Origin: Pseudomonas sp. B21-015
GTDB lineage: Bacteria; Pseudomonadota; Gammaproteobacteria; Pseudomonadales; Pseudomonadaceae
NCBI RefSeq assembly: GCF_024749285.1
Contig: NZ_CP087196.1
Span: forward strand, 4,898,001 to 4,962,000
Length of the DNA stretch: 64,000 nt
Direction of reading: 5' to 3'
How positions within the stretch are numbered: the first letter of the stretch is position 1; each line of letters opens with the position of its first letter. A model generated the notes under the pieces. It ran no database searches and was not told where the DNA came from. It saw only the letters and a list, made by a program, of their open reading frames with translations. Both the position numbers and the translations under genes were made by a program. Below are positions 20,448-48,602 of the stretch, piece by piece.

Positions 20448-21164
20448 ATGAATATCCCGATCAAAAGCATAAAGTTGCCCGAAGACTGCCCCGCTGATAT
20501 CTCTCTATGGCTAGCTCATGTCAGATTCGATCTACCACCAGACAGCAGCTGTTTCTCTGAGCTCTGCGCAGATGAAAAAATGCGCCTTGCGGCTTTCCAC
20601 CAAACGGCTGATGCCGCTCGCTTTGCATCGACTCGAGCGGCTTTACGAATACTGCTGTCAGAAAAGCTGGGCAAGCCTCCTGGACAAATATCGTTCACAG
20701 TGGACGCATACGGGCGGCCGAGCGTGAAAAACATACCTTGCTGCGAAGCGGAGTTCCCCTTTCTCGACTTCAATGTTTCCCACTCAGGTGAGTACGGCCT
20801 GATCGCCTTGTCAATGAAACGCCGGGTAGGTGTCGATATACAGCAGCATACTAAGCTCGATTGGCGTGAAGTCGCTGCCGTCACACTGAGCACCGACGAG
20901 TCTGCTCATATCGACCAACTAGATGCACCGAATCAATTGGCTACATTTTACGATTACTGGTCGACCAAAGAAGCTTTGCTTAAATGCGTAGGCGTTGGAA
21001 TTTCGTATGGTATGAAACGTATATCAGTTCACCCGCGCTCACAGCGCAGTGTAAAGTGGTTACATCCTAACAACGGCGTAACACGCTGCTATGCGGCTGC
21101 TCCTGTCGACGCCCCGAAAAATTACGCTGCACAGCTTGCATGGTCTATTACCGACCCATGTTAA
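20448..21164 (+). CDS. Sfp-type 4'-phosphopantetheinyl transferase
   Basis: The 238-residue enzyme shows the Sfp-family motifs DFNVSHSGEYGLIALS (about residues 107-122), VGVDIQ (about 127-132, Mg-binding Asp) and WSTKEALLKCVGVG (about 172-185, catalytic Glu and Lys). It transfers phosphopantetheine from CoA to carrier-protein serines. Placed beside two NRPS proteins, it most likely activates their T domains. The ATG at 20448 gives the family-like beginning; AAGAAG lies upstream. It converges on the racemase gene. Confidence 0.9.
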   Translation: MNIPIKSIKLPEDCPADISLWLAHVRFDLPPDSSCFSELCADEKMRLAAFHQTADAARFASTRAALRILLSEKLGKPPGQISFTVDAYGRPSVKNIPCCEAEFPFLDFNVSHSGEYGLIALSMKRRVGVDIQQHTKLDWREVAAVTLSTDESAHIDQLDAPNQLATFYDYWSTKEALLKCVGVGISYGMKRISVHPRSQRSVKWLHPNNGVTRCYAAAPVDAPKNYAAQLAWSITDPC

Positions 21165-21229
21165 CGTGGGTCGCACGAAAGTCATGGGCGCGCTGTAATG
21201 CAATGCCCATGTTCATTGAATACAATCAA

Positions 21230-22054
21230 TCATCTCTCGCAGTCCCCTCCGATGCGTACAGCATGAACTTGGCATTCTATGCTCAGTAGTCGATTGGCTA
21301 ACTTCATTAGCGCAATTTGTTGGCTATCAGTCGTCGTTGAACAGAAACGCAGGAAAGTACTGCTCCCTTCCTCTGCTTTCACTCCAGACTTTGTCAGTAG
21401 ATCATAAGCTCTTCTAGCGATCGCAGTTCCAGTCTCGATAAGTTCCAATTGATCACCGAACAGATGTTTTATGTGTGGGGCCAGTAAAGCGAAGTGTGTG
21501 GAGCCGAGCACAACCGTATCGGCACCCGCCAGTATCATCGGTACCAGATATTTCTGAAGTAACGTAGAGATGTCCGGTGAGTTGATATCGCCCTGTTCGA
21601 TCAGCTCGACAAGGCCGTGGCCTGCTTGGCAAATAAAACTGCAATGACCGCTATAGTTGGAAAGAAGATCCCGCAGTTTCTCGCTGCGTAGCGTTGCGGC
21701 TGTTGCCAGCACTCCAACAATACCGGTAACGGACACCAGCACTGAGGGTTTGATCCCAGGTTCAACTCCCACAATGGGAACCTTCAATTGGTCTCGCAGA
21801 CTCGCAATTGCGTGTGTGGTAGCAGTATTACAAGCAACAACCAACATCTTCGCGCCCTGCTCCACGAGCCATTTGGCCAACGCCGCGCTACGCTCGCGGA
21901 TAAACTCGTTTGTCTTCTCGCCATATGGTGCATAGCGCGAGTCCGCCAGATAAATTATCGATTCGTCAGGGAGCCGCCGGCGAAGTGCTTCCAGTACCGA
22001 GAGACCTCCCAAACCCGAATCGAATACGCCAATAGGTGCAGAGTTACTGATCAT
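21230..22054 (-). CDS. murI: Glutamate racemase (MurI family), second catalytic Cys replaced by Ser
   Basis: The 274-residue protein has the MurI fold with GVFDSGLGGLSV (Asp11), LADSRYAPYGEK, VVACNTATTH (Cys75) and VLGSTHFALL. In MurI the last motif is normally GCTH, and the two cysteines act as the acid/base pair; here residue 185 is Ser (codon TCC). It may still racemise slowly or act differently. In cluster context it could supply D-glutamate for the starter A-T protein, which has no epimerisation domain. The ATG at 22054 gives the standard N-terminus. It is 265 bp downstream of the methyltransferase, so it may have its own promoter. Confidence 0.85.
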   Translation of the reverse strand: MISNSAPIGVFDSGLGGLSVLEALRRRLPDESIIYLADSRYAPYGEKTNEFIRERSAALAKWLVEQGAKMLVVACNTATTHAIASLRDQLKVPIVGVEPGIKPSVLVSVTGIVGVLATAATLRSEKLRDLLSNYSGHCSFICQAGHGLVELIEQGDINSPDISTLLQKYLVPMILAGADTVVLGSTHFALLAPHIKHLFGDQLELIETGTAIARRAYDLLTKSGVKAEEGSSTFLRFCSTTTDSQQIALMKLANRLLSIECQVHAVRIGGDCER

Positions 22055-22319
22055 AATATCGAACCAATGATTGTAATTTACTCCGGGGCGCCGGCTCTGA
22101 TGCAATCACTGCGTATTGTTTGAAAACCGCAAATAATACGCACCGTGAAGAGTCCAATCGGGTATACCCGACTGATTTCTCGTGCTTTGTTTCGCATCAA
22201 TACTGACCGTGCCGCCGCGCCTAGAGCTGCGTCTACACGCCTGTTTGTGATTGTCCCGCTGGGTTTCCTGTCGTCGCAGGATGCGTGGTCCCTGAATCGC
22301 CACGCACCGGGTGTTGGTT

Positions 22320-23180
22320 TTAGCTCACTTCACCCTTTTGCGGCGTACGCGCTACCCAGCTTTCACGTGCGCCTCGTTTGTAATCGTCGAGCTCGGTCCA
22401 GTCTGTTATCCCCTGTGACTTCCAATCTACGCGCTCGTATTCAAGACCGAAGTGATCGAAAAGCATTTCGACCAGCGAGGGATTCGCCCAGCCCATCAGG
22501 CCACTTGGACGAGCCGTCGCGCCTGGCGCTTGTGCGTCTTCATACAGGAACACCAGATTACCTGTGCGGCTATGAGAACTTGGAACGATATTGGCAAGCC
22601 AACTCTGTATCCGCTTCATCAGGCCAGCGCCACGGGTTCCACCTTGTTGGGTTCGTGTCACGAACGAGTTCACGCGATAGTTTCGTAAGCGTTCGCGCAG
22701 ATTCCATTGCTCCAACGCGACCCACGTGTCGAGTATGAAGGTGCCCGGAGCGATCCGACTGACTTCGCGCATAATCTCGATATGCTCAATCAAGTGGCTC
22801 AAGACGCCGAAGCAAAGGATCGTATCGAATGCGCCGGGCTCGACGCTTTTCAGGTATTCGACTAGATCCCCACAGATCACTTCATAGCTGTCGTTGCTGT
22901 GACCGCCTTGCGCCAGATTTTCCTGCGCACTTATCGTGTGATCGGCCCGCACCTCCACTCCGACGACTTTACTCGCGCCATGGGCAAGCGCGGCATGCAT
23001 GAAGCGTCCGTCGTGACTCGCCAGATCGAGCACTTTTTTGCCCTTGAACGCGTCCGCGTATCGACTCAGCAGTACTTCGGATCGCCAGTTCAAACGATGC
23101 GCGTTCGCGCGGACGTTGCTCGACTCTAAGAAAATTGATTTGGAAAAATCGATGCTTCGTTCACTCAATTGACTCGACAT
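22320..23180 (-). CDS. sulP: SAM-dependent O-methyltransferase, SulP-like
   Basis: The 286-residue class I methyltransferase has the SAM-binding loop VLDLASHDGRFMHAAL (about residues 50-65), the acidic motif VVGVEVRADH and ILCFGVLSHLIEHIEIM (motif III). In the sulfazecin cluster a methyltransferase with the dioxygenase beside it makes the methoxy group on C3 of the beta-lactam. The same pairing exists here, with the TauD-type gene 105 bp upstream. The substrate assignment is by context only. The Shine-Dalgarno is weak. Confidence 0.75.
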   Translation of the reverse strand: MSSQLSERSIDFSKSIFLESSNVRANAHRLNWRSEVLLSRYADAFKGKKVLDLASHDGRFMHAALAHGASKVVGVEVRADHTISAQENLAQGGHSNDSYEVICGDLVEYLKSVEPGAFDTILCFGVLSHLIEHIEIMREVSRIAPGTFILDTWVALEQWNLRERLRNYRVNSFVTRTQQGGTRGAGLMKRIQSWLANIVPSSHSRTGNLVFLYEDAQAPGATARPSGLMGWANPSLVEMLFDHFGLEYERVDWKSQGITDWTELDDYKRGARESWVARTPQKGEVS

Positions 23181-23285
23181 ATCTTGACTCGCACAGGATT
23201 AAATAAAGTGGCCAAAGCCCAGGTATCTGGCCGCATCTTCTCCCTTGAATGGGCAAGTATTGCGGCCAAGCTAAAGAACGCTGAA

Positions 23286-24164
23286 TTACGCCGTCGCAGG
23301 TTCCGTTTTTTTCACGCCGCTCACTCCCAAAGGCACGTCGCCCCTGACGCAAACACGGTGCGCCAGACGCCGCCCCGAACCGTAGTCGTCCACCGCCGTA
23401 TGCATCGTGCAGCGGTTGTCCCAGACCGCGACGTCGCCCTTGGACCAGTGCCAACGTACGACGAACTCCGGCCTCTGCATGTGTGCATAGAGGAAGTTGA
23501 GGAGGTGGGCACTCTCTGAGGAACTGAAGCCGACGATATGCGAGGTCATGAATGGATTGACGAACAGGCACTTGCGACCGGTTTCCGGATGCACACGAAC
23601 GACGGGGTGTTCGGCGCCGAAGACGTTCGAAAAATCAATGTCGTTACGACCCTTGGTCTGAAACGCACCAGGCCGCTCCGCGTATTGTTTGCTCAACATG
23701 TCGTGGACAGCAGTCTGTCCTTCAAGAAATTGCTGCATCGAGGCAGACAAGGTCGAATAGGCCGCTTCACAGTCCGCCCACATAGTATCGCCGCCGCTCT
23801 CTGGCACTTCTTTTACACAGAGAATTCCCATGGCTGTAGGCCGTTTCGCGATACTCAGATCCGTATGCCAGATAGAAGCCCGACCACTGGCGACATCACC
23901 GTCGAAAATGGTGAGCTCCGGCGTCTCTTTAGGCTTGGCCGCGAAAGACGGGAACTCGGTTTCTACCGTACCGAACAGGCGGCCGAATGCGATTTGTGTG
24001 TGCGTCGGCAGCGCCGGCTGATCGGTGAACAGCAACACCTTGTACTTCAGCATCGCCTGTCGAACTTCTTCTATATTTGCGCTCTCTACCAGATCGCAAA
24101 TGTTGCATCCACGAACTTGCGCGCCAATCGTCCCGCTCAGAGGGCGAATATCTAATGTTGCCAT
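23286..24164 (-). CDS. sulO: Fe(II)/2-oxoglutarate dioxygenase (TauD family), SulO-like
   Basis: The 292-residue enzyme has all TauD active-site residues: WHTDLS with His100 and Asp102, MHTAVDDYG with His255, and Arg270 in the following LAHR, which binds 2-oxoglutarate. In the sulfazecin pathway a TauD-type oxygenase hydroxylates the C3 position before O-methylation. The ATG at 24164 follows the sulfotransferase stop by one base and has AAGGAG upstream, so the two are coupled. Confidence 0.85.
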   Translation of the reverse strand: MATLDIRPLSGTIGAQVRGCNICDLVESANIEEVRQAMLKYKVLLFTDQPALPTHTQIAFGRLFGTVETEFPSFAAKPKETPELTIFDGDVASGRASIWHTDLSIAKRPTAMGILCVKEVPESGGDTMWADCEAAYSTLSASMQQFLEGQTAVHDMLSKQYAERPGAFQTKGRNDIDFSNVFGAEHPVVRVHPETGRKCLFVNPFMTSHIVGFSSSESAHLLNFLYAHMQRPEFVVRWHWSKGDVAVWDNRCTMHTAVDDYGSGRRLAHRVCVRGDVPLGVSGVKKTEPATA

Positions 24165-24165
24165 T

Positions 24166-24930
24166 TCATGCACTCCTTGTTGCCTGATTGATACTGCAAT
24201 CACCAGCATCAGCGGTGGACTCGAACAGGTCCTTCGCGAAGCCGTATAACTCCATGTCGAACTGATTTCTTTCTGTGACGTAGCTCAGACACGACTCGGA
24301 CAGCGTCACATCCGGACCGTAAGCACCTTCGTTTTGCCGCTCCAGTTGCGGCAAATCCCACATAAAGTCGCGCGCAAAACGATTCATCGATCGATCGAAT
24401 TGCTCGGTCAGACCGAACGCGGTAAAGCGCTCAACAAGGTTGTACTTGGCCTCGTCCAGATGCCGCTGCGACACACGCTCGCGCACCGAGCCGAACCGGG
24501 CACCTGAGATCGCCCGCACCTGATAGTTGTCCAAATCGATGCTGGCATCGCTCTGCAGGAATTGCTCAAGTCCCAGGCGCCGCTGTAACAGGTAGGAGTG
24601 CAGATAGTTGCTGCGGTCTTTGAGCGCGTAAAAATAGAAGGAAATCAGTCGTTGAATCGGCTCCCTCAACAACGTCACGTGATGGATGTCACGCAGATCG
24701 CTATCGAAGCCGTAGACGAAATGGCCCCGCAACATATCGAACCCAGCTTTCTCGCTGGCGCTCAGGTTACGGAACGCATCGATCTTCTCGTTCACCACGC
24801 TGCTCTGTTCGTCGCCATAGAATTTCGCGGACTGACTTCCGCAATACAGGTCGTCAAGCATAGTGCCGAACGACGTACCTGCCGTTCGGGGGATGTGGAC
24901 AAACGCGATCCGGGGATTCGCAAGGCTCAT
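24166..24930 (-). CDS. sulN: PAPS-dependent N-sulfotransferase, SulN-like
   Basis: The 254-residue protein has the 5'-phosphosulfate-binding loop HIPRTAGTSFG (residues 13-23) and the 3'-phosphate motif LLREPIQRLISFYF (about 87-100) of cytosolic sulfotransferases. In sulfazecin biosynthesis a sulfotransferase transfers SO3 to the Dap nitrogen of the carrier-bound tripeptide, making the N-sulfonate that defines monobactams. Its ATG overlaps the NRPS stop (ATGA), which ties it tightly to the NRPS. An APS kinase in the same operon supports PAPS supply. Confidence 0.85.
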   Translation of the reverse strand: MSLANPRIAFVHIPRTAGTSFGTMLDDLYCGSQSAKFYGDEQSSVVNEKIDAFRNLSASEKAGFDMLRGHFVYGFDSDLRDIHHVTLLREPIQRLISFYFYALKDRSNYLHSYLLQRRLGLEQFLQSDASIDLDNYQVRAISGARFGSVRERVSQRHLDEAKYNLVERFTAFGLTEQFDRSMNRFARDFMWDLPQLERQNEGAYGPDVTLSESCLSYVTERNQFDMELYGFAKDLFESTADAGDCSINQATRSA

Positions 24931-27900
24931 TGCGCCCCCCCAATGGAGACGCTTTCCCATAGTTCCTGCAGCGAGCTCGCTACGCGCTCAGGGCAATCAC
25001 GCAGTAAGTAGTGCCCGACGCCGGGGTATTCCACGAGTCGGGTCTGGGTCCCAAGGTGGTTCCAGTCCTGGAATCGCTGTTGATAGCTTGGTACCAGTTG
25101 ATCCTCTGTGCCGACCAGACACCACACTGGAATATGCAGGTTCTCCAGAGCATTGCGCCCCATGTCTGCGACCAGGTGGTTGTAGTAGCCGTCAGCCATC
25201 GAGCAGTCGTAGCGGAAGTCGTGCATGAAAAACGCTAATTCGTCTGGCTGCACCGGCAGTGTTGAGCCTACCGATCCCAGGAAATTGATGACCTCCCTGT
25301 CGGTACGCAAGTCCTTGGCGCTAATGGCGGTACGCATTAGTGCCCCACCAATGCACAATCCGCGCAAGTCAGCCGAACGTCTTTTCAGTTCGCGCGCCAC
25401 GCTGATTGCCAATGCCGAGCCATTGCACTGGGCAAATACGATAATCGGCAGCATCGTTTCTTTCAGCAGACCGTCGCAAATCTCGTTCGTCAGACGTGCG
25501 ACTTCATCGATCATCGCCGCCTCGTTGCCGACGTCGTTGCGCGGAAACTTCACCGCGTACAACGCCAACTTGCGAGGAAGTGCAGCCATCGCACGACCCG
25601 TTTCAATGAAGTTGACGGGACCGCCCGCCGAGTTGGCGAAACAGACGACAACGGCTTCGGCTGTCGTCAGGTCCCCGCTCATTGGCACCAGAGTGCGCTG
25701 AGCGTCGCTGCTGCGCGAGGCAAGGTGCGCGGCGAGCGTCTCTATCGTCGGAAAATTGTAGATATCCGTTACTTCAACCGGCGGGCCGTATTTCGCCGCA
25801 ATACGGATCGCCTTGAACGAATCACCGCCGAGCTCGAAGAAGTCGTCGCGGATGCCTATCGCTGGATTGGCCAGCACCCCACACCAGATATCCGCAAGAT
25901 GCCGTTCAACATCGGTCGTTGGTTCGACGTATTCCGAACGCGGCGCATCATCTTGGAACTGAGCGAGCAACGCCCGGCGATCCACCTTGCCGCTTTGCAG
26001 CTCAGGCAGGTGTGTTGAGAAACGGAAAACCGACGGCACCATGGACGGCGGGAGCTTGGCTTTCAGCTCATCGATAATGTGTTCGCGATCGCCCTCGTTG
26101 TGCGGCACGACATAGGCACACAAGAACGCTTCGCGTCCTTCGGGCCGGATGTCGAGCACCGCCGCCTGACGCACGGCCGCAATTTCGAGCAGATTCGATT
26201 CGACTTCTCCCAATTCGATCCGCATGCCGCGGATTTTCACCTGATTGTCTTTTCTTCCGTGATACAGCAACACGCCATCCGGACGCATCACGCCGATGTC
26301 GCCGGTGCGATACAGACGTCCCTTGTACTTATCCGGAAACGGGCTTTCCACAAACGCTTTGGCTGTCGCCCCTGCCATCCCTACGTAACCGCGTCCAATG
26401 CCGACACCGCTGACGACGATTTCTCCTTTCACCCCGAACGGCACGGGTCGCAACTCGTCATCGACGACATAGATGTCAAAGTTGGCGAGTGCCCGGCCTA
26501 CCGGAACTGGATTGACGATGACGTCATCGGCTGTCATCACGTGGTGTGTGATGTCGTCCGATGCTTCGGTCGGACCATATGCATTGACCGCTTTACTGGT
26601 CGGAAACAGCTTGAACCAGCGTCTGAGAAGCGATGCATCCACCGCTTCACCAGTGACCAACAGGAACTGCAGGTCTAACGCGGGTCGTTGTAGCGGCCGC
26701 TCCTCCAAGAACTCGATCAGCACCAGCAAGTACGTTGGCACGACTTCCAGCACCGTGATCTGGTCCTGCACAAGACGGCCGATAAAGCCGGCAATGTCGT
26801 TGACAACGCGCTCGTCATACACAAACGTTGTGCCACCCTGGGTCAATGCAATAAACATCTGCCAGACCGACACATCGAAACTCATCGAGGCATTCTGCAC
26901 AACGCGACTCGCGTCGTTCATCTCCAGATCGATTGCCTTGTTCGCAATATTGTTCAGCATGCCGATGTGCTCGACCATCGCGCCTTTCGGTTTGCCGGTC
27001 GATCCGGAAGTGAATAGCACGTAACTCAGATCATGGGCGGAAACATGGATATCCGGGTTTTCGTCGCATGCTTGTGCTCCCTCTATCAGATCGCCGTAGG
27101 TCGCTGTGCGAACGTCGGTCATCGGTGCCGCGAATGCTGCGACATCCGTGTCCTCGATTAGCAGCGTCGCCTCCGCAATCTGCAACATCTCGCGCACACG
27201 CTGCTCCGGTAGTACCGGGTCGATAGGAATGTACGCCGCACCGACCTTCCAAATGGCCAGGATCGTGACGATAAGTCTGTCGCTTCGCGGGATGCGCACG
27301 CCAATCAATGCGTCCGTGCCCAGGTTCGGGAAAGACGACAGAAGGCTGTTCGCCAGACGATTCGCTGCACAGTTGAGATCGTCGTAGCTGTAGCTATACT
27401 CGTTGAAAACCAGCGCCTGCTTGCTCGGTGTGGCGGCCGCATGATCCTCGACAAGATGCGGGACGAGGAGCCTGCCCAACCGAAGATCGCCCTGTCGCAA
27501 CGTACGGCTGACTTCCACGCCATCAGTTTCGATATCGTAGGCAGCCAAGGCCGTATCGCCACGACCAAGGGCTGTGCCTACCGGCTCGTCAAGACGATTG
27601 GGTATGTTGAGGAGAGCCGTTTCAAACTTATCAGCCATAGTGTGAACATCCTTGATGTGGAATCGCGAAGAGTTGAAAGCTATTTCCAGTCCGAGGCGTG
27701 TCCCCGGCTTGGCCGACACCGTGAGGCCGTAATGGGTCTCTTCGGCGTAGCCGTAATCAGTCAGGCCGAGCAGCTCGTTCGAGTCGAGCGACACTTCGGG
27801 GTAGTTCTCGACGATCAATACGCTGTCGAACAACGATTGACCGTTTCGAATTGCGCTTTCGCGCTGGATCTGGAGCAGATCGAGGCTGGCATGTTCTTCG

Positions 27901-30900
27901 CGCTCGATATGAGCGTCGTGAACGCTGCGCAACCAGTCCCGAAGACTCAGGTTAGGGTCGATCGTCAGTCGTGCAGGAACTGTATTGATCAATGGCCCAA
28001 CGATGGTTTCGACGCCGAGTAGATCAATCGAGCGGCCGGAGACTGTGACGCCGAACACCACGTCTTGTTCGCCGCTGTACTGGCGGAGCAATAGCGCCCA
28101 TGCGGCCTGAAGCATTGCCGATACCGTGATATGGCAAGCACGGGCAGTGTCAACGAGTCGGCGTGTGTCTTGCTCGTTGAGCTCACGACGCAGTACTGGC
28201 GACTCGCCGGCAGGGGATTCAAGCTCGTGCTGTTCAATGCCGAGCGTGGTCCGGCTTGCCAGATTACCCAGCACACCGCGCCAATAGCGTCTGTCTTCGT
28301 CCTGCGATCGGCGCTGTCGCCATTCGATGAAGTGGCCGAACGATTGCGCAGCCTGCAGTGTTGGTGCACACCCCGCATGAAGTGACTCGTACGCAGTAAA
28401 AACTTCTGCCCAGATCAGTGAAACGCTCCAGCCGTCGAGAATGCCGTGGTGATAGGTCCAGACGAACCGATATCCCTGCGCGCCGCGATCAACGAGCGTC
28501 AGGCGGATATGTGAAGCGCATGCGAAATCGAACGGCGTAGACTTATCCGCAGCCAGTATCGCGTCGAACGCAACGACCTGCTGCTGCACATCGAGCTGAC
28601 GATGATCGACCTCACGCCATGGGCATTCGACATGCGATAGCACCGCCTGCAATGGTTGCTCACGGTCGAACCCGACAAATGCGGTGCGCAACACTGGATG
28701 ACGATCAATGACCAGCTGCCAGGCTGCCTTGAACAGCTTCGGCTCAAAGGAACCTGCGAAGCTCATAAACACCTGGTTTGTGTAAGCGCTGGCGTGATCG
28801 GGCATCAGACTGTGAAACACCATGCCCACCTGCATACCAGTGACCGGGTAGAGGTTTTCGAGCGCTGGGTAACACTCGCGCCAAGCACAAATTTCGTCCG
28901 CCGTGACAGATGCAAGGGGAAAGTCGGCCGGCGTCGGACGCCAGCGCGTCGGTAATGTCTTGCAATGGGCCGCTATCTCACACAGTGCATTGACAAACAG
29001 CGATGCGAAGGTCTGTATGGTCTGTTGTTCGTATTCTTCGCTCGAGTAATCGATTTCGAACGCCAAGCAGCCATCCTTGACTTCACCGTTCATGCCGAGT
29101 CTGTGCTCACGACGGCGTTGCTCACCGATATCATCGCTCGCCACGACATTCAGCACCGAAATGCCAGCCGTTTCGTCGCCGTGGGTATCGATCTGACCGA
29201 AGTAGTTAAAGACGATCTCGGCCGGGCTAGCCTCTTCCGCCTCTACCAACGAAGGGTCAGCCACCACGTGTCGCAAGATGCCGTAGCCGAAACCGTGATG
29301 GGGTATCGCCCGATACTGCTCTTTGACAGACATGACCGCCGCGGCAACCTGCTCATCCGGCGACCCGTTTCTGCTCGTAAGCGCATTGTTCAGCATCAAC
29401 ACGAGCGGGTAATAGCTGGTGAACCAGCCCACGGTCTGGCTGACGTCAAGCTCATCCGGAGCACCAGCGTATTGACTCAGGGCATAGGTTTCTCGTCCGT
29501 GCCCCTCCAGCGCGATCCGTATCGCTTCATGGCCCGTCCAGCGGTATACCGCAAGCAACAGTGCAGTGAGCATCAGTTCATTGATGTGCGTCTGATAGGC
29601 ATGATGACTCTCGGTCAGCAGCATCGCGGTTGTCTGCGCGCTCAAACAGGCTACTTCGATCCGTCTAAAGCGGCGCGTGCTGTCGCTCGCCACGCCGTGA
29701 TCGATAGGTAGCTGCGGCACCGGCTGAGCCAGCGTTTTCAGCCAGTAGTCACGCTCGGCAAGTAGCGCGGGGGCATTGCGCTGCGCCACGATCTCGTTTG
29801 CCCACGCCTGGTATGAGTCGGTTTTGTCGTGCAGCGAAATGCTTTCAGTGACTTGCCATTGCGAATAAGCATGACGCAGATCCTCGAGGAGGATGCGCCA
29901 TGACACACCGTCGACCACAGTGTGATGGCAAATCAGCAACAGACGGGAAGTGCATTGCCCGCCGCGCGTGGCCAGCGCCGCCTTGAATAGCGGCCCGTCT
30001 GACAAGTTGATGCAATCACGAGCCTCGCTAAAGAATGTATCGATGTTCTGCGATGAGTTGCCCGAGTGCGCGAAGTTGCGCGTTTCGAGCGAAGCATGTA
30101 CCTGCAACTCGTCCATCGGAACGAATTCACCGCTCCATTCCCCCTCCCTCGTCTGCAACCGCATGCGCAAAGCATCGTGACGCAGGAACAGCGCGCTTAA
30201 CCACACCTTGAGGAATGCACAGTCGAGGTCCACCGGAACATCCAGCAGTCGCGATTGGTGATAGTGATTGATCTGCTCCGCGTCGAGCGCAAAGAAGCGC
30301 CGGTGGATCGGCAACAATGGCATCGTCTTGACGCTCGCCTGTTGCGAAGGCTTTCTGACCGAGCCGCGAACGTTCGCCGCTAGCCGCTCGATGGTCTGGT
30401 GCTGGAACACATCTCGTGCGGACAGTTTCATTCCCTGCTGCCGTGCCCGGGATGCGACCTGAATCGATAAAATCGAATCACCTCCTGCCGCGAAGAAATT
30501 GTCGGTGACACCAATCTCTGGCACCCGCAGCACCGATTTCCAGATTTCACACAGCAGGCTTTCAATCTCATTGCGTGCGGCGACCGAAGCACTGTGCTCG
30601 GGCCGTACCTCGCCACTGATCGTTTCAAGTTCCTTGCGGTTGAGCTTTCCGGTGATACCTTTCGGTAGGCTGACGGTGAACACAAACGATGCGGGTACCA
30701 TATATTCTGGCAAGCGCAGTTTGATCGCCTCCGTCAGCGTCTGTGCCAACAGGGTCGATGCGTGCGAAGCCGTAAGCACCTCACCCTCCATGTGGCCGGA
30801 CGGCACGACATAAGCGACCAATCTAGTTGGTCCGCCCTCCGCGCTTTGAGCGAGAACGGCGGCTTCACTGACGAGTGGGTGTGCATTCAAAACGCTGGCG

Positions 30901-40321: not shown

Positions 40322-40398
40322 TGGTGGTGGTCTCGAAATTTTTGAGGAGAAACGGACGTCGCGAGCATCGCGGCCCACACGTCATTGACCAGCTCGCG

Positions 40399-41058
40399 TT
40401 ATTCGGACGTTGCTGTGTCGAGACTGGTCTGGGGCGAAGACCTGAATGCGGAAGGCTCGTGCGGGGTGGGTCGTAGCACGCTATCGATGTAGTACCGACG
40501 CAGGATGTCTGTGGCTGTATCGATATCGGTGGTGGTTGTGTCGATACGTACTTGCGGATTGAGCGGCGCCTCGTACTGGGCGTGGATACCTGTGAACAAC
40601 TGGATTTTTCCGGCGCGGGCGCGCTGGTACAGACCTTTCGGATCCCGCTCTTCCGCGACTTCGAGTGGGGTGTCGATATGCACTTCGATGAAGCGTCGGT
40701 CGCCGATGATGGTTCTGGCCATGTCCCGGAACGACTTCATCGGCGAAATGCACGAGACGATCACGAGTAAGTGTGCATCCGCCATCAGTGCTGCGACCTC
40801 GGCAATTCGACGGATGTTTTCCGCGCGGTCTTGCTCCGAGAAACCAAGGTCCGAATTCAAGCGGCTACGCACGACATCACCATCGAGTGTCACGACCGGC
40901 CAATTTGCTGTGCGGCAAACGCTTTCGAAACTCGTCGCTATCGTGGTCTTTCCAGCGCCTGATACACCCGTCAGCCAAAAAACGGCCGACGACGGGCCAA
41001 ACGGAGAAGTATTGAGGGGGGAATGTGTTCCACAATCGATAGCTTTACGGTCATGCAT
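40399..41058 (-). CDS. cysC: Adenylylsulfate (APS) kinase
   Basis: The 219-residue protein has the P-loop GVSGAGKTT (31-39), LDGDVVRSRLNSDLGFSEQDR (starting about residue 58, the APS-binding motif) and GLYQRARAGKI-like residues near 145-155. It phosphorylates APS to PAPS, the sulfonate donor. Housekeeping Pseudomonas sulfate assimilation does not need a dedicated free copy beside an NRPS; here it would feed the sulfotransferase downstream in the operon. It is the first gene of the leftward operon, with AAGGAGAGG upstream of the ATG at 41058. Confidence 0.9.
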   Translation of the reverse strand: MHDRKAIDCGTHSPLNTSPFGPSSAVFWLTGVSGAGKTTIATSFESVCRTANWPVVTLDGDVVRSRLNSDLGFSEQDRAENIRRIAEVAALMADAHLLVIVSCISPMKSFRDMARTIIGDRRFIEVHIDTPLEVAEERDPKGLYQRARAGKIQLFTGIHAQYEAPLNPQVRIDTTTTDIDTATDILRRYYIDSVLRPTPHEPSAFRSSPQTSLDTATSE

Positions 41059-41290
41059 GACAATACCTCTCCTTGTTCTAATCACCGCTCATAGAGTTGG
41101 AACGGTGTTGCAATTCCTTTGCGTGTTTATTGCCTTTATCGGCCGTAGCTCAACACATTTTCGAACTTCCAATCGATCACGGACACACATTGATACTGAT
41201 TGTGGCATTGCAGAAGTAGCTGAACATTCTTAGGTTGTAAAGTTTTTCAAACCAAAACTAGTTAAATTTTTTGTCATCCGAAAAAAAATT

Positions 41291-41320: not shown

Positions 41321-41384
41321 AAAAAAGCTGATACTTGCACCACTGTGGACAGGCCTGTTTTCTCTAAGGCATCAGGTGGTGATA

Positions 41385-41408
41385 CCTCCAGACTCAGGAG
41401 GGATTTTT
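41385..41408 (+). terminator. Hairpin plus T-run in the leader: terminator or attenuator
   Basis: CCTCC (41385-41389) pairs with GGAGG (41397-41401) around a 7-nt loop, and a TTTTT run follows at 41404-41408. It lies about 60 nt downstream of the predicted transcription start and about 120 nt before the first gene, so it could attenuate the operon. The GGAGG could also be mistaken for a ribosome site, but no start codon follows at suitable distance. Confidence 0.4.
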
Positions 41409-41526
41409 GCTAGCGCAGTTATGGATGTTCGCTTGGTTGTAAGGTGCAATCGGTGCATTCCACTGGCTCATACCAGGTGGTTGTCAGCAGTTTCACCGGA
41501 AAGTCCGCACATGGAAGAGGCGCGAA

Positions 41527-42027
41527 ATGCCCGAGGAAAGGCGTGAAATGAACGTACGGACAGCTGAGCCTCACTCCGAGGAAGCTCCTGAGTTAATGTT
41601 TTTACCACCCGAAATGCTGAAGCCTACGGAAGAGATTATTCCGAGTCATTTGCGTGAGCTAACCGCGCAGATGCTGTCATCTAGCCAGTGGCAAACCCCC
41701 ATTCTCGTCGAGCGCTCAACGCTGATCATCATGGATGGTCACCATCGCAGGGCCTTCGCCCTTGAGCAGAAATTCGCCCGCGTCCCCTGCATTCTTCTTT
41801 CATATTCCCACGTCCTGCTGGAGTCGCGCAGGAAGGACCTTCTGGTGACGCCTGCCGAGGTCATTTCGCGCGGGTTGAAAGGCAAGCTATATCCACCAAA
41901 ATCTACCCGACACACCCTGCAAACCGGCGGTGAACTGATAATCGAGTTTTCCTTTCAGGAACTGCTCGCCCCTTTTAAAAGTAGTGATCGCTTAATCCCT
42001 TCAAGTTGCAAGGTGATAAGCAGCTAA
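41527..42027 (+). CDS. SbnI-like ParB/sulfiredoxin-fold free serine kinase
   Basis: The 166-residue protein has the ParB-like signature of the SbnI/SerK group: PPEMLKPTEEI at about residues 27-37, QTPILVERSTLIIMDGHHRR at about 56-74, and AFALEQKFARVPCIL. SbnI in staphyloferrin B biosynthesis phosphorylates L-serine to O-phosphoserine, which SbnA then uses. It is the first gene of the operon containing SbnA- and SbnB-like enzymes, which fits that role. Two starts are possible: ATG 41527 and ATG 41548, each with a purine-rich region (GGAAGAGG and GAGGAAAGG) upstream. Confidence 0.75.
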   Translation: MPEERREMNVRTAEPHSEEAPELMFLPPEMLKPTEEIIPSHLRELTAQMLSSSQWQTPILVERSTLIIMDGHHRRAFALEQKFARVPCILLSYSHVLLESRRKDLLVTPAEVISRGLKGKLYPPKSTRHTLQTGGELIIEFSFQELLAPFKSSDRLIPSSCKVISS

Positions 42028-42104
42028 TAAATCTTATGCGACGCTGACTCTATTATCAGATCCTTGTTAGATCTTGCCTATTTGTGCCCGGGGTAAAACT
42101 AAAA

Positions 42105-43094
42105 ATGAAATTCGACTCCATCGATCAAATAATCAATGACAATATTTTCCTGTTACTGGATCAGTTTACACCGGGGAAAAAATTATATTTAAAGATGGAG
42201 GGATTCAATCCCGGGGGTTCCATCAAGATTAAAACTGCAATGGCGCTGATGAGAAACGCGGAAGAGCACAGCAACTTGCGGGAGAAGAAGAGATTCATAG
42301 AGTCGAGTTCAGGTAATCTTGGACTCTCATTGAGCATGATTGCCGCAGCCAGAGGCTATCGATTCACTTGCGTCGTCGACAGCAATACCAGCGCACAATG
42401 CGTCGGGATAATGAGGGCGCTGGGCGCCACAGTGGTGGTCATCGATTGCCGCGACGAACAAGGCGGTTATCTTGGCAATCGGCTCGCCTATATCCGAAAT
42501 GCACTTGATCTCGATCCTGAGCTCACCTGGCTCAACCAATATCAGAACCCGGCAAATCCCGCCGTCCATGTCGAGATGACCGCGCAAGCGATCTTCGATG
42601 AGTTCGACCATATTGATTATCTGTTTGTGGGTGCCGGCACCACGGGCACGCTCATGGGCTGCTCTGATTTTTTTCGCCGCCATTCTCCTCGCACGAAACT
42701 CATTGCAGTCGATTCGATAGGCTCAGTGACATTTGGCACACCCGGTCAACGCCGTTATTTGCCAGGCCTGGGAGCCAGCGTGATGCCGCATTTTTTCAAC
42801 CGCAGCAAACTGGACCGACTCATTCAGATACCCGAGGCTGAAACAGTAGCGGCCTGCCGAGACGCAGCGCTTCGCTACGGCAGCTTTTGCGGCGCGTCGA
42901 CCGGTACCGTGCTCGCGGCAGTCAAGCGCATGTCTGCCGAACTGCCTCGTGATGCGACCGTCGTCGCGATTTCTCCAGACCTCGGCAATTCCTATTTCGA
43001 CACAATCTATAGCGACGAATGGTGTGACAGTACATTTGGTCTCGCATGGCGCGAACTCTCGCATACGACTACGGATATCCCAGAGCATGCATAA
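42105..43094 (+). CDS. sbnA: SbnA-like PLP enzyme (N-(2-amino-2-carboxyethyl)-L-glutamate synthase)
   Basis: The 329-residue fold-type II PLP enzyme shows FNPGGSIKIKTA (PLP Lys41), ESSSGNLGLSLS (substrate loop), VGAGTTGTLMG (PLP phosphate loop) and CGASTGTVLAA. SbnA joins O-phosphoserine and L-glutamate to give ACEGA, the first step to L-2,3-diaminopropionate. The next gene is SbnB-like, overlapping by 8 bp, and an SbnI-like kinase precedes it, so SbnA rather than cysteine synthase is the better call. The ATG at 42105 is chosen over GTG 42084. Confidence 0.85.
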   Translation: MKFDSIDQIINDNIFLLLDQFTPGKKLYLKMEGFNPGGSIKIKTAMALMRNAEEHSNLREKKRFIESSSGNLGLSLSMIAAARGYRFTCVVDSNTSAQCVGIMRALGATVVVIDCRDEQGGYLGNRLAYIRNALDLDPELTWLNQYQNPANPAVHVEMTAQAIFDEFDHIDYLFVGAGTTGTLMGCSDFFRRHSPRTKLIAVDSIGSVTFGTPGQRRYLPGLGASVMPHFFNRSKLDRLIQIPEAETVAACRDAALRYGSFCGASTGTVLAAVKRMSAELPRDATVVAISPDLGNSYFDTIYSDEWCDSTFGLAWRELSHTTTDIPEHA

Positions 43095-44118
43095 TCACGA
43101 CCCGCAGTTTTCGGTGATCGGGGGCGACTACATTCAGACGCTGCTGTCAAACTCGACAGTGGACATTATCAATATCGTCGAACATTGCTACCTACTGCAT
43201 CACAGCGGCAACACCGTCAATCCGGATAGCTATTTTCTGAAATTCGATGACAAGCCCGAGGCTCGCATCATCGCGTTACCCACAGCCATCCGAGACGAAA
43301 ATAACGGCTCCTCGTTTTCGGGCATCAAGTGGATTGCGAGCTACCCGCGCAATATTGATGCGAATCTGCAACGGGCTTCAGCCGTCATTGTGCTTAACGA
43401 CTATCAAACCGGTTATCCGTTCGCATGTCTTGAAGCGTCGCAGATCAGCGCCGCCCGCACTGCTGCTTCCGCGGTGCTGGCCGCTAGCCGGCTCGGTCCG
43501 CAGAACCGACGCGCAGCACGCCTGGGCATAATCGGTGGAGGCCTTATTGCGAGCACTATTCTCAAGTTTTTCAAGGCTCACGGTTGGCAGTTCGAAGATG
43601 TGTGCCTGTATGACATATCCGCGCAACATTGCGAAAAATTTGTCCGCAACGTAAATGCGCGCTCAATTTACCCTGTGCGCCCAGGCTCCCAAGACGAGGC
43701 ACTCAGCGCAGACATCGTTGTGTTGGCGACCACAGCAGGCAGCCCGTGGATCCCGGCAACACACACCTTTGTTCAGTCACAGTTGGTATTGAACATTTCC
43801 CTGCGTGACCTGCCACCTGAAACCATCCTTGCCTGTAACAACATCCTGGACGATGTCGACCACTGCATGAAAGCTAATACATCACCGCATCTCGCAGAGC
43901 AGCAGTATGGGCATCGCGATTTCATTTCTGGGACTCTGGCTGAATTCATTCTTGGTCAAGCGCGGATCGATACCGGCAAGCCAACCATATTCTCGCCGTT
44001 CGGCCTGGGCGTCCTCGATCTGGGAGTTGCGATGTTTATCTATCAGAAAAGCCAACTTGCCGGCGCGCGTCATGCCATTCCCGGATTTTTTTCGACAACT
44101 CGACGCTGGACCGACTGA
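43087..44118 (+). CDS. sbnB: SbnB-like dehydrogenase (L-2,3-diaminopropionate-forming)
   Basis: The 343-residue protein belongs to the ornithine cyclodeaminase/mu-crystallin fold. It has IKWIASYPRNI (substrate region), the NAD-binding GIIGGGLIAST (about residues 151-161), NDYQTGYPFACLEA and VVLATTAGSPW. SbnB oxidatively cleaves ACEGA with NAD+ to give L-Dap and 2-oxoglutarate. The start ATG at 43087 overlaps the SbnA stop, so translation is coupled. L-Dap is the established beta-lactam precursor in sulfazecin. Confidence 0.85.
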   Translation: MHNHDPQFSVIGGDYIQTLLSNSTVDIINIVEHCYLLHHSGNTVNPDSYFLKFDDKPEARIIALPTAIRDENNGSSFSGIKWIASYPRNIDANLQRASAVIVLNDYQTGYPFACLEASQISAARTAASAVLAASRLGPQNRRAARLGIIGGGLIASTILKFFKAHGWQFEDVCLYDISAQHCEKFVRNVNARSIYPVRPGSQDEALSADIVVLATTAGSPWIPATHTFVQSQLVLNISLRDLPPETILACNNILDDVDHCMKANTSPHLAEQQYGHRDFISGTLAEFILGQARIDTGKPTIFSPFGLGVLDLGVAMFIYQKSQLAGARHAIPGFFSTTRRWTD

Positions 44119-44244
44119 AGCGACCGGCCCCGCTGCAGCGCAACCATCACCGGTACTGCACAGACACGCCGAGCATCACCACTGTTTTTACCTATCGAGC
44201 TGCGCCTTAACCCTTTCATCGCTTTTCTGGAATCGCACGCGCCA

Positions 44245-45459
44245 ATGTCTATCTCATTTCCGAAGTGCCTAAAAACCAAGCGTTCTCTTCTCCTGCTTCC
44301 AATAATCGCTGCCTTGGCACTGTTTGTTTATGGCGGATCAAGCACTACATCCGCGTCGCAGCCAAGTGCAGGTAATCCAGGAGAAGCGGCCGTACCGGTG
44401 ACGGCGGTCGAAGTGCTGAGTATGGACTTACCGATGTACCTTACGGGCGTCGGGCTGGTTCAGCCAATCGAGCAGATCACGATAAAAAGTCAGGTCGACG
44501 GCCAGATCACCAAAGTGCTCTTTAAACAGGGGCAATTCGTACGAAAAGGCGATCCACTGTTCGAGATCGACAGTCGATCATTTCGTGCGACGCTGGATCA
44601 GGTAGTCGCCAAGAAGGAACAGAATCAAGCGATGCTCGCAAACGCCAAACTGGACCTAGAAAGGCACTTGAAACTCGCGAAGGTCAACGCAATTTCCATG
44701 CAGGCGCTCGAAGCGCAGAAAGCACTGGTCGCACAATTGACGGCACAGGTACGCGGTGACCAAGCAGCCATTCAGAGTGCGCAGGTGCAGGCCGGGTATA
44801 CGACGGTGAATGCACCGCTGCCCGGAAGGGTCGGTTTCCAACTCGTAGATCCGGGCAATATCGTGAAGGCGAACGACACGTCGATTCTCACACTCGTTCG
44901 GATTTCACCGATCTCAGTGGTGTACTCCCAACCTGAGAATGCATTACCTGCGATCCATCAGGCGATCGCCGCAGGTAAGGTCTCGATCGATGCGCTGACG
45001 ACTGATGGCAAGACGCTCCTGTCCAGCGGGCATGTGAGCGCCGTCGACAACAGCGTCGACTCCTCCAGTGGAACAATCCGTCTGAAAGCGGAATTCTTGA
45101 ATGACACGAATGCGCTTTGGCCAGGACAGTCAGTGATGACTCGTACGGTGATTAGCGTGTTAAAGCAGGCGATCGTGGTACCTGAAGATGCTGTTCAACA
45201 TGGGCCCGAAGGCCTATTTACCTATGTAGTCGGAGACGACAACCGGGTGACAGTACAACCGATCGTCGTCGAACACAGATCAGTGGGATATGCCGCTATA
45301 ACAAGCGGTTTGCAGCCAAAGCAGCGAGTAGTGGTTAAAGGGCAATATCGCTTGCAGGACCGAACGCTTGTCTCCGTTACGTTGGCGAACACCAATGCTA
45401 CATCGGACACGCAAATGCAGACGGAGTCGACAGCCCGGCTCGCGATGGACGCTCAATGA
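44245..45459 (+). CDS. RND efflux periplasmic adaptor (MdtA/MexE type)
   Basis: The 404-residue protein starts with an uncleaved or cleaved N-terminal hydrophobic segment (LLLLPIIAALALFVYGG). Then come the biotinyl-lipoyl halves: GVGLVQPIEQITIKSQVDGQ before, and APLPGRVGFQLVDPGNIV after, a coiled-coil hairpin (about 110-175). It bridges the inner-membrane pump to the outer-membrane factor. The pump gene starts within its stop codon (ATGA). It is 126 bp downstream of SbnB. Confidence 0.85.
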   Translation: MSISFPKCLKTKRSLLLLPIIAALALFVYGGSSTTSASQPSAGNPGEAAVPVTAVEVLSMDLPMYLTGVGLVQPIEQITIKSQVDGQITKVLFKQGQFVRKGDPLFEIDSRSFRATLDQVVAKKEQNQAMLANAKLDLERHLKLAKVNAISMQALEAQKALVAQLTAQVRGDQAAIQSAQVQAGYTTVNAPLPGRVGFQLVDPGNIVKANDTSILTLVRISPISVVYSQPENALPAIHQAIAAGKVSIDALTTDGKTLLSSGHVSAVDNSVDSSSGTIRLKAEFLNDTNALWPGQSVMTRTVISVLKQAIVVPEDAVQHGPEGLFTYVVGDDNRVTVQPIVVEHRSVGYAAITSGLQPKQRVVVKGQYRLQDRTLVSVTLANTNATSDTQMQTESTARLAMDAQ

Positions 45460-48400
45460 CCATGAACACGAACCTGTTTGCCCCGTTCATCCGTTACCCA
45501 GTCGCGACCTGTCTGCTGATGGTTGGCATCATCTTTAGCGGGCTTGTCGCCTATTTTCATCTGCCCGTCGCGCCGCTGCCTCAGGTCGAATTTCCCACCA
45601 TTCAAGTATCCGCGACGCTTCCAGGGGCCGATCCAATCTCTGTCGCATCGTCGCTCGCGCAACCGCTAGAAACACAGCTCGCGAAAATCCCATACGTCAC
45701 GCAGATGACATCGCAGAGCACGTTAAGCTCGACGTCGATCGTTCTGCAGTTCAGTCTGGATCGCAACATCGACGCCGCGGGGAACGATGTGCAGGCCGCT
45801 ATAAACGCGGCAGCCGCACAATTGCCCAAAGACCTACCATCACCTCCGACGTTTCAGAAACTCAACCCGGCCGACCCTCCGATTCTACTGCTGAGCGCGA
45901 CCTCCGCGACACTACCGCTGACGACCATCAATGACTATGTTGAAACACGGCTCACGCAAAGCCTGAGTCAGATCGATGGCGTCGGTGCTGTGTCGATCGG
46001 AGGCCAACAGAAACCGTCGATCCGTATCCAGCTCGATCCCCTGAAACTAGCTGCCAAAGGCCTGTCGCTTGAAGACGTACGACTGTCGTTAACGAGGGTC
46101 TCGGGGGTCAGTCCCAAAGGGGTGCTGAACGGAGCGACACGCTCATATACCATTTATACGAACGGCCAGATCACTGATCCCACCGAGTGGAACAATGCGA
46201 TCATCGCTCACCGAGAAGGCAATCCGATTCGCGTCAGCGATGTCGGTACAGCGATACTCGGACCGGAAGACAGTACGCTGTCAGCATGGCTCGACAGTAA
46301 GCGGGCGATCACCATCGGCATTTACAAGAAGCCAGGTGCTAATACAGTCGACACTGTCGACAAGATCAAAGCGAAACTGCCGGAGCTCGTTGCGACGCTT
46401 CCACCGTCACTGAAAGTCGCTGTTCTTGCAGACCGAACTCAGACTATCCGCGCATCGTTGCTCGATATCGAACTGACACTGCTCGTTAACATCGTTCTGG
46501 TCGTCCTGGTCATCTATGCATTTCTAGGGAACGTGCGCACAACGATCATTCCAGCCGTCACGGTGCCCGTGTCGCTCCTCGGAGCATGTTCGCTCATGTG
46601 GGCATGTGGATACAGCCTGGACAACATCTCACTAATGGCGTTGACCATCGCGGTGGGCTTCGTCGTCGATGACGCGATCGTGATGGTGGAGAATATTTCG
46701 CGCCACATCGAGCAGGGCGTATCGCCGAGGCAGGCCGCGTTCAAAGGCCTTAGTGAAACCAGCTTCACGATTGCGTCTATCAGCATCTCGCTCGTCGCGG
46801 CCCTGATCCCCCTACTACTGATGGACGGCATCATCGGGCGAATGTTTCGGGAGTTCGCGGTCACGCTGTCAATGACGATTATCGTATCGGCGTTCGTATC
46901 ACTGACGCTGACGCCGATGATGGCTTGCTACCTACTACGGCCGACATTGCCCGAAAACGAACGCTCCGATGGCTGGATCAAAAAAAGTCTGGATCGGCTC
47001 ACGCATGGGTATGAGCGCTACCTCGATATCGCCCTAAAGCATCAATTCGCCACGCTCTGCGTCTTTTTTCTTTCGCTGATTGCATCCGTGTTTCTCTATA
47101 TCGGCATACCCAAAGGTTTCTTTCCGCAACAGGACACCGGCCTCATTACCGGTTTATCGGAGGCCTCACAGGATATCTCGGTCGAAGAAATGGGGCGGCA
47201 TTCCAAAGCACTGGCCGCGATCATTAGCAAGGATCCCGCAGTCGAGCACTGCTTGATGGCTGTCGGCGGCAGCGCTTATACCGGCACCACTGTCAACAAC
47301 GGGCGCTGGTACATTACGCTGAAGCCTCGTAATCAGCGCGACGCTTCTGCTGACGAGGTCATCCAGCGTCTGAAGCCGCAGCTCGCAAAAGTGACGGGGG
47401 TACGCCTGTACATGCAGGCTGCACAGGACGTCATCATCGGTGCACGACTCTCCCGCACGCAATATCAGCTCACACTGCAGAGCGCGGACGTTGCGGAACT
47501 GACGAAGTGGGCACCGCGACTACTCACCCAGTTGTCGTCGTTGCCGCAACTCAGGGATGTAGCGACGGACCAGCAGGTAAACGGCACGGCGCTGAGTGTG
47601 TCAATTGATCGCGATCAGGTTGCACGCTACGGCCTAACCCCTGAATTGATTGACGACACTTTGTACAACGCCTTCGGACAACGTCAGATTGCGCAATATT
47701 TCACGCAACTAGCGACCTACAAAGTCATCATGGAGGTGCTGCCGTCTTTGCAACGCGATGCGAGTGCACTGGATAGGATCTATGTGAAATCGCCGTCGAC
47801 AGGCGCCATGGTACCGCTGTCTTCGGTGGCGCAATGGACGACGGATCCGGTGCAACCGTTATCAGTCAATCACCAGTCACATTTCCCATCGGTCACGATC
47901 AGCTTCAACCTCGCACCTGGTGTATCGCTTGGTCAGGCGACCACAGCGATCGAGGCCGCGCAAGCACAACTGCAACTACCGCCAGCGGTGTTGAGCTCGT
48001 TTCAGGGAACCGCCCAGGCTTTCCAGAGTACGCTGGCGACAATGCCTATCCTGATCATCTCGGCGCTGGTCGTCGCGTACCTGATTCTTGGCGCACTTTA
48101 TGGGAGCTTTGTTCATCCGTTAACTATTCTATCGACCTTGCCTTCGGCTGGTGTCGGAGCAATCGCCACCCTTTGGCTCTTTCACTATGACTTCAGTCTG
48201 ATCGCATTGATTGGCATTATTTTGTTGATCGGCATCGTCAAGAAGAACGGAATCATGATGGTCGACTTCGCCATTACCGCGACACGCCGAGACAACATGT
48301 CGTCGTTCGACGCCATCCGCACTGCATGCCTGCTACGCTTTCGTCCGATCATGATGACGACGATGACCGCTCTATTCGGTGCGCTGCCTCTATTGCTAGG

Positions 48401-48602
48401 TACCGGCATGGGCTCGGAGCTACGGCGACCGTTGGGCTATGCTCTGGTCGGTGGCCTCGTCATAAGCCAACTGCTCACCCTGTTCACCACGCCGGTCATC
48501 TATCTTTATCTCGACAGTTTGTCAAAACGGCTGAACCGATGGTTTGGATCGCACAGTGAGGCTCACGCTGCAGATCAGCGCGCCGAAATATCGGGTCAGT
48601 AG
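45456..48602 (+). CDS. RND efflux pump (MdtB/MdtC-like, HAE1 family)
   Basis: The 1048-residue protein has the RND layout of 12 membrane helices and two large periplasmic loops. It shows LPQVEFPTIQVSATLPGADP near the start, the helix-4 motif GFVVDDAIVMVENISRHIE with the proton-relay Asp pair, and GIVKKNGIMMVDFAI in helix 10. MdtB/MdtC-type pumps export bile salts, novobiocin and similar compounds; which substrate this one takes is unknown. Its placement next to Dap genes suggests product export or self-resistance. No outer-membrane gene follows; the one at 35502 probably completes the system. Confidence 0.9.
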   Translation: MTMNTNLFAPFIRYPVATCLLMVGIIFSGLVAYFHLPVAPLPQVEFPTIQVSATLPGADPISVASSLAQPLETQLAKIPYVTQMTSQSTLSSTSIVLQFSLDRNIDAAGNDVQAAINAAAAQLPKDLPSPPTFQKLNPADPPILLLSATSATLPLTTINDYVETRLTQSLSQIDGVGAVSIGGQQKPSIRIQLDPLKLAAKGLSLEDVRLSLTRVSGVSPKGVLNGATRSYTIYTNGQITDPTEWNNAIIAHREGNPIRVSDVGTAILGPEDSTLSAWLDSKRAITIGIYKKPGANTVDTVDKIKAKLPELVATLPPSLKVAVLADRTQTIRASLLDIELTLLVNIVLVVLVIYAFLGNVRTTIIPAVTVPVSLLGACSLMWACGYSLDNISLMALTIAVGFVVDDAIVMVENISRHIEQGVSPRQAAFKGLSETSFTIASISISLVAALIPLLLMDGIIGRMFREFAVTLSMTIIVSAFVSLTLTPMMACYLLRPTLPENERSDGWIKKSLDRLTHGYERYLDIALKHQFATLCVFFLSLIASVFLYIGIPKGFFPQQDTGLITGLSEASQDISVEEMGRHSKALAAIISKDPAVEHCLMAVGGSAYTGTTVNNGRWYITLKPRNQRDASADEVIQRLKPQLAKVTGVRLYMQAAQDVIIGARLSRTQYQLTLQSADVAELTKWAPRLLTQLSSLPQLRDVATDQQVNGTALSVSIDRDQVARYGLTPELIDDTLYNAFGQRQIAQYFTQLATYKVIMEVLPSLQRDASALDRIYVKSPSTGAMVPLSSVAQWTTDPVQPLSVNHQSHFPSVTISFNLAPGVSLGQATTAIEAAQAQLQLPPAVLSSFQGTAQAFQSTLATMPILIISALVVAYLILGALYGSFVHPLTILSTLPSAGVGAIATLWLFHYDFSLIALIGIILLIGIVKKNGIMMVDFAITATRRDNMSSFDAIRTACLLRFRPIMMTTMTALFGALPLLLGTGMGSELRRPLGYALVGGLVISQLLTLFTTPVIYLYLDSLSKRLNRWFGSHSEAHAADQRAEISGQ

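Follow-up and report, generated by a model that had tools for sequence, protein, structure and literature searches.

The strains from which sulfazecin and isosulfazecin were described bore the name 'Pseudomonas' at the time and have since been reassigned to Paraburkholderia and Burkholderia (PMC11298585, PMC5472815; these and all other papers are cited from excerpts). A 64,000-nucleotide stretch of the Pseudomonas sp. B21-015 genome (NZ_CP087196.1, positions 4,898,001 to 4,962,000; hereafter the window, numbered from its first letter) raises the question of whether a true Pseudomonas carries the complete pathway to such a monobactam, which compound it would make and how the genes are set in the chromosome. 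An earlier note on this DNA had proposed a complete sulfazecin-type cluster at 20448-48602, with a gamma-D-Glu-D-X-monobactam as its product. Our analysis indicates that the window very probably holds a sul (sulfazecin-type) cluster on a tRNA-borne island, with sulfazecin (gamma-D-Glu-D-Ala-3-methoxymonobactam) or a near-identical compound as the predicted product; we assign the pathway with high confidence and the identity of the compound with moderate confidence. The system itself is of a known kind, found here in a new host and with altered accessory genes, and unlike the reclassified original producers this host is a real Pseudomonas.

Gene content and order compared with the sul locus

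To delineate the cluster, we compared 17 window proteins with 60 kb of the sul locus of Paraburkholderia acidicola ATCC 31363 (formerly Pseudomonas acidophila). The 14 genes spanning 22320-48602, from a methyltransferase to the pump of a resistance-nodulation-division (RND) system, follow the order and orientation of that locus at 57-79% protein identity, and this collinearity excludes a chance assembly of unrelated genes. A NYN-domain protein, a 4'-phosphopantetheinyl transferase (PPTase) and a glutamate racemase had no match in the 60 kb. Nine of the collinear genes lie on the minus strand and encode, with identities to P. acidicola, a SulP-type O-methyltransferase (22320-23180; Methyltransf_25; 77%), a SulO-type 2-oxoglutarate (TauD) dioxygenase that would hydroxylate C-3 (23286-24209; PF02668; 73%), a 254-residue SulN-type sulfotransferase dependent on 3'-phosphoadenosine 5'-phosphosulfate (PAPS) (24166-24930; PF03567; 64%), a SulM-type non-ribosomal peptide synthetase (NRPS; 24927-33881; 57%), a FAD/NAD(P)-binding protein (33974-35380; PF13454; 58%), a NodT-family outer-membrane efflux factor (35502-36989; TIGR01845 over cut-off; 65%), a major facilitator superfamily (MFS) exporter (37080-38414; PF05977; 67%), a starter protein with adenylation (A) and carrier (T) domains orthologous to the A-T part of SulI (38477-40378; 62%) and an adenosine 5'-phosphosulfate (APS) kinase for PAPS supply (40399-41085; TIGR00455 over cut-off; 63% to the N-terminal part of SulI). 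On the plus strand, these are followed by a serine kinase-like gene (41548-42027; 58%), SulG, an SbnA-type enzyme of 2,3-diaminopropionate (Dap) synthesis (42084-43094; TIGR03945 over cut-off; 76%), SulH, an SbnB-type dehydrogenase (43087-44118; TIGR03944 over cut-off; 69%; the longest open reading frame begins at 42949, with the ATG at 43087 as the likelier start), an RND periplasmic adaptor (44245-45459; TIGR01730 over cut-off; 57%) and an MdtB/MdtC-like RND inner-membrane pump (45456-48602; PF00873; 79%).

Open reading frames, Pfam and NCBIfam thus recovered the functions that the earlier note had listed for 20448-48602, and the synteny and homology comparison that it had named as a check came out positive for 14 of 14 core genes. 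Its statement that every function is present holds for all those listed, with two qualifications: nothing matching the PPTase or the racemase was found in the 60 kb of the known locus, and the beta-lactamase of that locus is missing from the window. Its gene list stands as well, except that the probable free serine kinase gene at 41548-42027 had been left out.

The same note would have given up its reading had the thioesterase (TE), sulfotransferase and Dap genes branched away from their sul homologues; the TE and SulG trees and the named matches of the sulfotransferase point the other way. In a TE tree built from the first 25 of 120 proteins listed among 302, the window enzyme grouped with that of Pseudomonas sp. 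10B1 (support 100/99), beside six Burkholderiales sulfazecin-type enzymes (95/91); only 10B1 was closer, and a long-branch warning concerned eight other rows. The T-TE part is 55-65% identical to those six enzymes. Matches to the window sulfotransferase include records named SulN (62%) and IslN (64%). SulG paired with P. acidicola SulG (100/100) in a tree of 17 rows, in which the 15 further SbnA-type enzymes from the genus, 47-51% identical to the window's, fall elsewhere; the tree excludes a further SbnA-type gene of the B21-015 genome at 2657611. When 20 of the 112 listed starter relatives were placed in a tree, the window protein grouped with three metagenome proteins (79-84% identity; 100/100), beside the Burkholderiales SulI/IslI clade.

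An alignment of 23 of 47 SulN-related proteins, used as query of genome contigs, identified eight loci. Two of them, in P. acidicola ATCC 31363 and Chromobacterium subtsugae PRAA4-1, match over most of the query at 65% identity; of the remaining six, five have 26-29% identity and the last matches over 25 residues (60%). At 57-79% identity to P. acidicola, the window locus provides a second, diverged reference for the N-sulfonating and ring-closing enzymes.

Assembly line, thioesterase and predicted product

The NRPS has the length of SulM, 2984 residues, and aligns with it over its full length. It contains three Condensation-family stretches, whose HHxxxD motifs lie at residues 250, 1319 and 1811, along with two A and two T domains, and ends in a TE; these domains and motifs confirm the C-A-T-E-C-A-T-TE order proposed earlier (C, condensation; E, epimerisation). 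The middle Condensation-family stretch, with HHTVVD at residue 1319, is the E domain, and its presence argues for D-Ala in the predicted product, as in sulfazecin.

The T-TE part matches the crystal structures of the SulM TE and of its carrier protein (PCP)-TE unit (8W2C, 8W2D). The Cys-type TE of the earlier note was likewise found, as the motif Q2818-C2819-N2820 with the triad C2819/D2927/H2957, and the PCP3 serine is S2688. In the alignment, window Cys2819/Asp2927/His2957, Arg2850 and Arg2859 correspond to SulM Cys2818/Asp2926/His2956, Arg2849 and Arg2858, and SulM Asn2819 is also kept. Among the TEs compared in PMC11298585, Gln-Cys-Asn occurs only in SulTE. Of the structure-based marks put forward in that paper, the window carries Gln-Cys-Asn, an Asp at position II (after beta-7), at least two of three basic TE-pocket residues, a Dap-type last A domain and a sulfotransferase gene; by our own reading of the excerpt the three basic residues are Arg2849, Lys2854 and Arg2858, of which the window keeps two and has Ala for the third. 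It is very improbable that the assembly line ends instead in a free acid, a beta-lactone or a macrocycle, with the sulfotransferase acting elsewhere: the related Cys-type TE of ObiF1 does form a beta-lactone (PMC11298585), and ObiF1 is also among the TE matches, but the Gln-Cys-Asn motif, the Dap genes and SulN are all in the window. In the TE tree, the motif is present in 23 of 25 rows and missing from two outer rows (P0025, P0026).

Pocket codes were read at the nine positions that we take to be set by the GrsA rule. The first internal A domain (A2) has the code DVPNFALVF in both the window and SulM, and because these residues are equal the X of the earlier gamma-D-Glu-D-X is most likely Ala. 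The last A domain (A3) reads DVWELTADD, as against DVWEMNADD in SulM, and is of the Dap type. The pocket of the starter (A1), read by eye, equals that of SulI, and this protein would activate D-Glu. Incorporation of L-Ala and L-Dap by the A domains of SulM has been confirmed biochemically (PMC11298585).

Several observations weigh against assigning the locus to sulfazecin. SulM Lys2854, modelled near the gamma-Glu carboxylate (PMC11298585), is replaced by Ala in the window NRPS and in that of Pseudomonas sp. 10B1, and two of the nine A3 pocket residues are not those of SulM. In the starter tree, the window and Burkholderia proteins are united with a support of just 81/77. Finally, the class A beta-lactamase that in P. 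acidicola directly follows the RND pump (C6:1114064-1114822) has no counterpart in the window, where tblastn returned only a 13-residue chance match at an E-value of 5.3.

The first two of these differences would suit a variant monobactam from the same pathway, such as isosulfazecin (with L-Ala, if the E domain were idle), a compound that differs in its second residue or one that lacks the methoxy group, since Lys2854 is lost and the A3 code is that of an isosulfazecin-type enzyme: DVWELTADD also occurs, as read by eye, in the Burkholderia ubonensis NRPS taken as IslM. The E domain is nevertheless present with its HHxxxD motif kept, the A1 and A2 pockets are identical to those of SulI and SulM, orthologues of SulO and SulP are in place at 73% and 77% identity, and the SulM equivalent of the isosulfazecin cluster is described as lacking an E domain (PMC5472815), so that a variant product appears unlikely. 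The isl cluster of the B. ubonensis-like strain ATCC 31433 resembles the window in its IslN-named sulfotransferase (64%), in the A3 code and in a B. ubonensis starter (61%) that is unfused by length; the isl-type B. ubonensis NRPS, however, has 2506 residues in the database, and the E domain of the window NRPS rules out membership in the isosulfazecin type.

The analysis establishes gene content and order, active-site and pocket residues, phylogeny and insertion site; with sulfazecin as the preferred product, a route can be predicted from the published chemistry of the orthologues (PMC11298585, PMC6097109). The serine kinase-like protein would supply O-phosphoserine, which SulG and SulH would convert to L-Dap, while the racemase would provide the D-Glu loaded by the A-T starter. 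The 2984-residue NRPS would add L-Ala, epimerised to the D form, and then L-Dap. PAPS made by the APS kinase would allow SulN to sulfonate the Dap nitrogen on the carrier, after which formation of the four-membered ring and product release would fall to the Cys thioesterase. The 3-methoxy group would be introduced by SulO and SulP, and the RND, outer-membrane and MFS proteins would export the compound. The FAD/NAD(P)-binding protein (33974-35380), which is conserved in the clusters of P. acidicola (58%) and C. subtsugae (59%), has no role in the published route as far as the excerpts go.

Precursor supply and accessory genes

The gene at 41548-42027 (plus strand), directly before SulG, is conserved in P. 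acidicola and C. subtsugae. Its product alone had no Pfam match, whereas a profile of three orthologues matched the archaeal free serine kinase (5x0b, E-value 5.4e-8; 1vk1, 2.2e-7) and, weakly, SbnI (E-value 0.18). The protein aligns with the N-terminal KP-E and DGHHR stretch and the C-terminal PK-TRH stretch of SerK, with the catalytic Glu of KP-E and DGHHR kept, although SerK has 242 residues and the window protein 159. SbnA relatives of SulG use O-phosphoserine. The product is likely a free L-serine kinase giving O-phosphoserine for Dap synthesis, and a probable function can thus be offered for a gene that has no role in the pathway literature as excerpted. It may alternatively be a ParB-type regulator, as ParB-type relatives can be regulators, for instance EdeB in edeine production (PMC9641203). 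Its AlphaFold model is of low confidence (mean pLDDT 34). In the gap before the gene, the sole promoter-region match shared by the window and P. acidicola is 11 bp long and lies next to the gene start.

Whereas SulI of P. acidicola is a 1089-residue fusion of A-T and APS kinase, in the window these are two genes with an in-frame stop between them and a gap of 20 bp (92 bp from the likelier start of the starter); the database version of the starter, of 609 residues, would start at 40306. Among the 112 starter relatives listed, the APS kinase domain (PF01583) is found in SulI only, which makes the fusion an exception and not essential, and the Burkholderia starters are likewise unfused by length. 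The separate genes with their in-frame stop and the unfused Burkholderia starters rule out a frameshifted SulI.

The glutamate racemase gene (21230-22105, minus strand; TIGR00067 over cut-off) is an extra MurI-type copy that shares the strand of the sul genes and follows the methyltransferase gene after 214 bp. Its product is 48% identical to that of a copy at genome position 1119082, which presumably encodes the housekeeping MurI, and there is a third, partial match at 4039749. As the SulI-type starter uses D-Glu, the racemase is likely a dedicated D-Glu supply. Convergent with it lies the gene for the Sfp-type PPTase (20448-21164, plus strand; PF01648, PF22624), which matched only itself in a protein search of its own genome and probably activates the carrier domains.

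The other side of the accessory gene set is what the window lacks relative to P. acidicola. A beta-lactamase in the sulfazecin cluster is mentioned in reviews (PMC6804068, PMC6100412). Elsewhere in the B21-015 genome, beta-lactamase family members comprise five PF00144 matches and two weaker PF13354 matches. To the left of sul, P. acidicola has a second sulfotransferase and transketolase-like and SerC-like proteins (named by eye), which we take to be probably bulgecin genes. No such block was seen in the window, and the search of the B21-015 genome with one protein of this block gave no match, a result uninformative as a negative. The window and the P. acidicola cluster therefore share the same 14 genes, SulM length, A1 and A2 pockets and TE motif, but differ in the SulI fusion, in the beta-lactamase and likely bulgecin genes missing from the window and in the racemase and PPTase added there.

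Taken together, the sul genes may form, as we tentatively suggest, a self-sufficient, horizontally acquired monobactam cassette that brings its own racemase (D-Glu), PPTase (carrier activation) and serine kinase (Dap), in which export and host defences would replace the cluster beta-lactamase, and which would have no described precedent in a true Pseudomonas. If functional, the locus is a case of a sul cluster working without a beta-lactamase of its own.

Island, distribution and relatives

The cluster lies on a genomic island of about 32.9 kb (about 18047-50955), between a LysR-type regulator gene and tRNA-Ser(CGA) (50961-51050, minus strand; ARAGORN, Rfam), the insertion site. Its borders were set with eight stretches of about 15.5 kb, from eight of 13 relatives with a close purC match; all eight stretches carry the same tRNA. 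In agreement with the earlier placement of an island between core genes, homology to the relatives resumes at 50941-50960, at the tRNA, in all eight stretches, and reaches the left LysR gene (18046 at most) in five. In L064 about 0.3 kb separates the LysR gene from the tRNA; in L065, L066, L068 and L069 the distance is about 5-11.5 kb, and the stretches of L063, L067 and L070 do not include the gene. Because this distance varies and no island protein occurs in any of the eight stretches, tRNA-Ser(CGA) looks like a variable insertion site, or hotspot, in the genus, of which the window holds a 32.9-kb occupant. The GC content is 0.557 in the island and 0.598 and 0.588 in the flanks. To its right, core genes including bamC and dapA are collinear with those of a P. 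aeruginosa record, the DNA identity being 76% over 48% of a 13-kb stretch. A 16S comparison with a plasmid collection (532 records) gave no Pseudomonas among the 12 matches listed, of which the best full-length ones have 88-89% identity; five records at 90-95% lie outside those 12.

At the island ends (18696-20250 and 48603-50955) lie the NYN-domain protein, a 301-residue open reading frame without a family match and an AlpA-type regulator (49023-49244, minus strand; PF05930, E-value 2.7e-24). The regulator is a mark of integrative elements and fits one here; the proteins scanned include no integrase, and within the window the tRNA region has no exact repeat of at least 12 bp. A direct recent transfer from Burkholderia is unsupported: the sul core of P. 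acidicola has a GC content of 0.643, against 0.565 in the window, and the TEs of the window and 10B1 form a separate branch beside the Burkholderiales clade.

The distribution of SulN is narrow. At an E-value of 1e-20 it was found in one of 199 genus genomes, that of B21-015 itself, and at 0.001 in eight of 144 relatives, all but the B21-015 genome at 25-33% identity. Protein databases add Pseudomonas sp. 10B1 as a further carrier of SulN and the NRPS (SulN and T-TE both 90% identical), which is the source of the closest named relatives of these two proteins and the only other named Pseudomonas record with both among the matches listed. For plasmids, there was no SulN above 30% identity among 20 listed of 29 records and no NRPS match of at least 60% in 3066 records; viral contigs gave no match. 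No report of a sul cluster in a true Pseudomonas was found in the sulfazecin and monobactam literature as excerpted, and a mention in the full texts is still possible.

This rarity within the genus, together with the missing linked beta-lactamase and an AlpA-type regulator unaccompanied by an integrase among the proteins scanned, is what one might expect if the cluster were silent or partly defective in its present host and yielded no antibiotic. All core genes are nevertheless uninterrupted open reading frames, the NRPS catalytic residues checked are in place, and the T-TE region is 90% identical in Pseudomonas sp. 10B1, which means that more than one strain has retained the enzyme; we regard a silent cluster as rather improbable.

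Beyond Pseudomonas and Burkholderiales, C. subtsugae PRAA4-1 has a monobactam-type cluster that shares with the window the SulN, SulO, SulP, FAD, MFS, APS kinase and serine kinase-like genes. Its NRPS has 1845 residues in the database, the gene aligning best from window NRPS residue 1106 on, and no A-T starter lies between the MFS and APS kinase genes; the short NRPS and the missing starter suggest that its product is likely a shorter monobactam. A SulN relative at 50% identity is present in Bradyrhizobium ontarionense. In the B21-015 genome itself, a second SbnA-type gene over the family cut-off (C1:2657611-2658513) suggests that there may be another Dap-using pathway. Lastly, in Thalassomonas viridans and Pseudoalteromonas sp. 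MMG013, NRPSs of about 1800 residues with PF18563 carry the Gln-Cys-Asn TE motif at 39-40% identity and are possible undescribed monobactam-type lines in marine bacteria.

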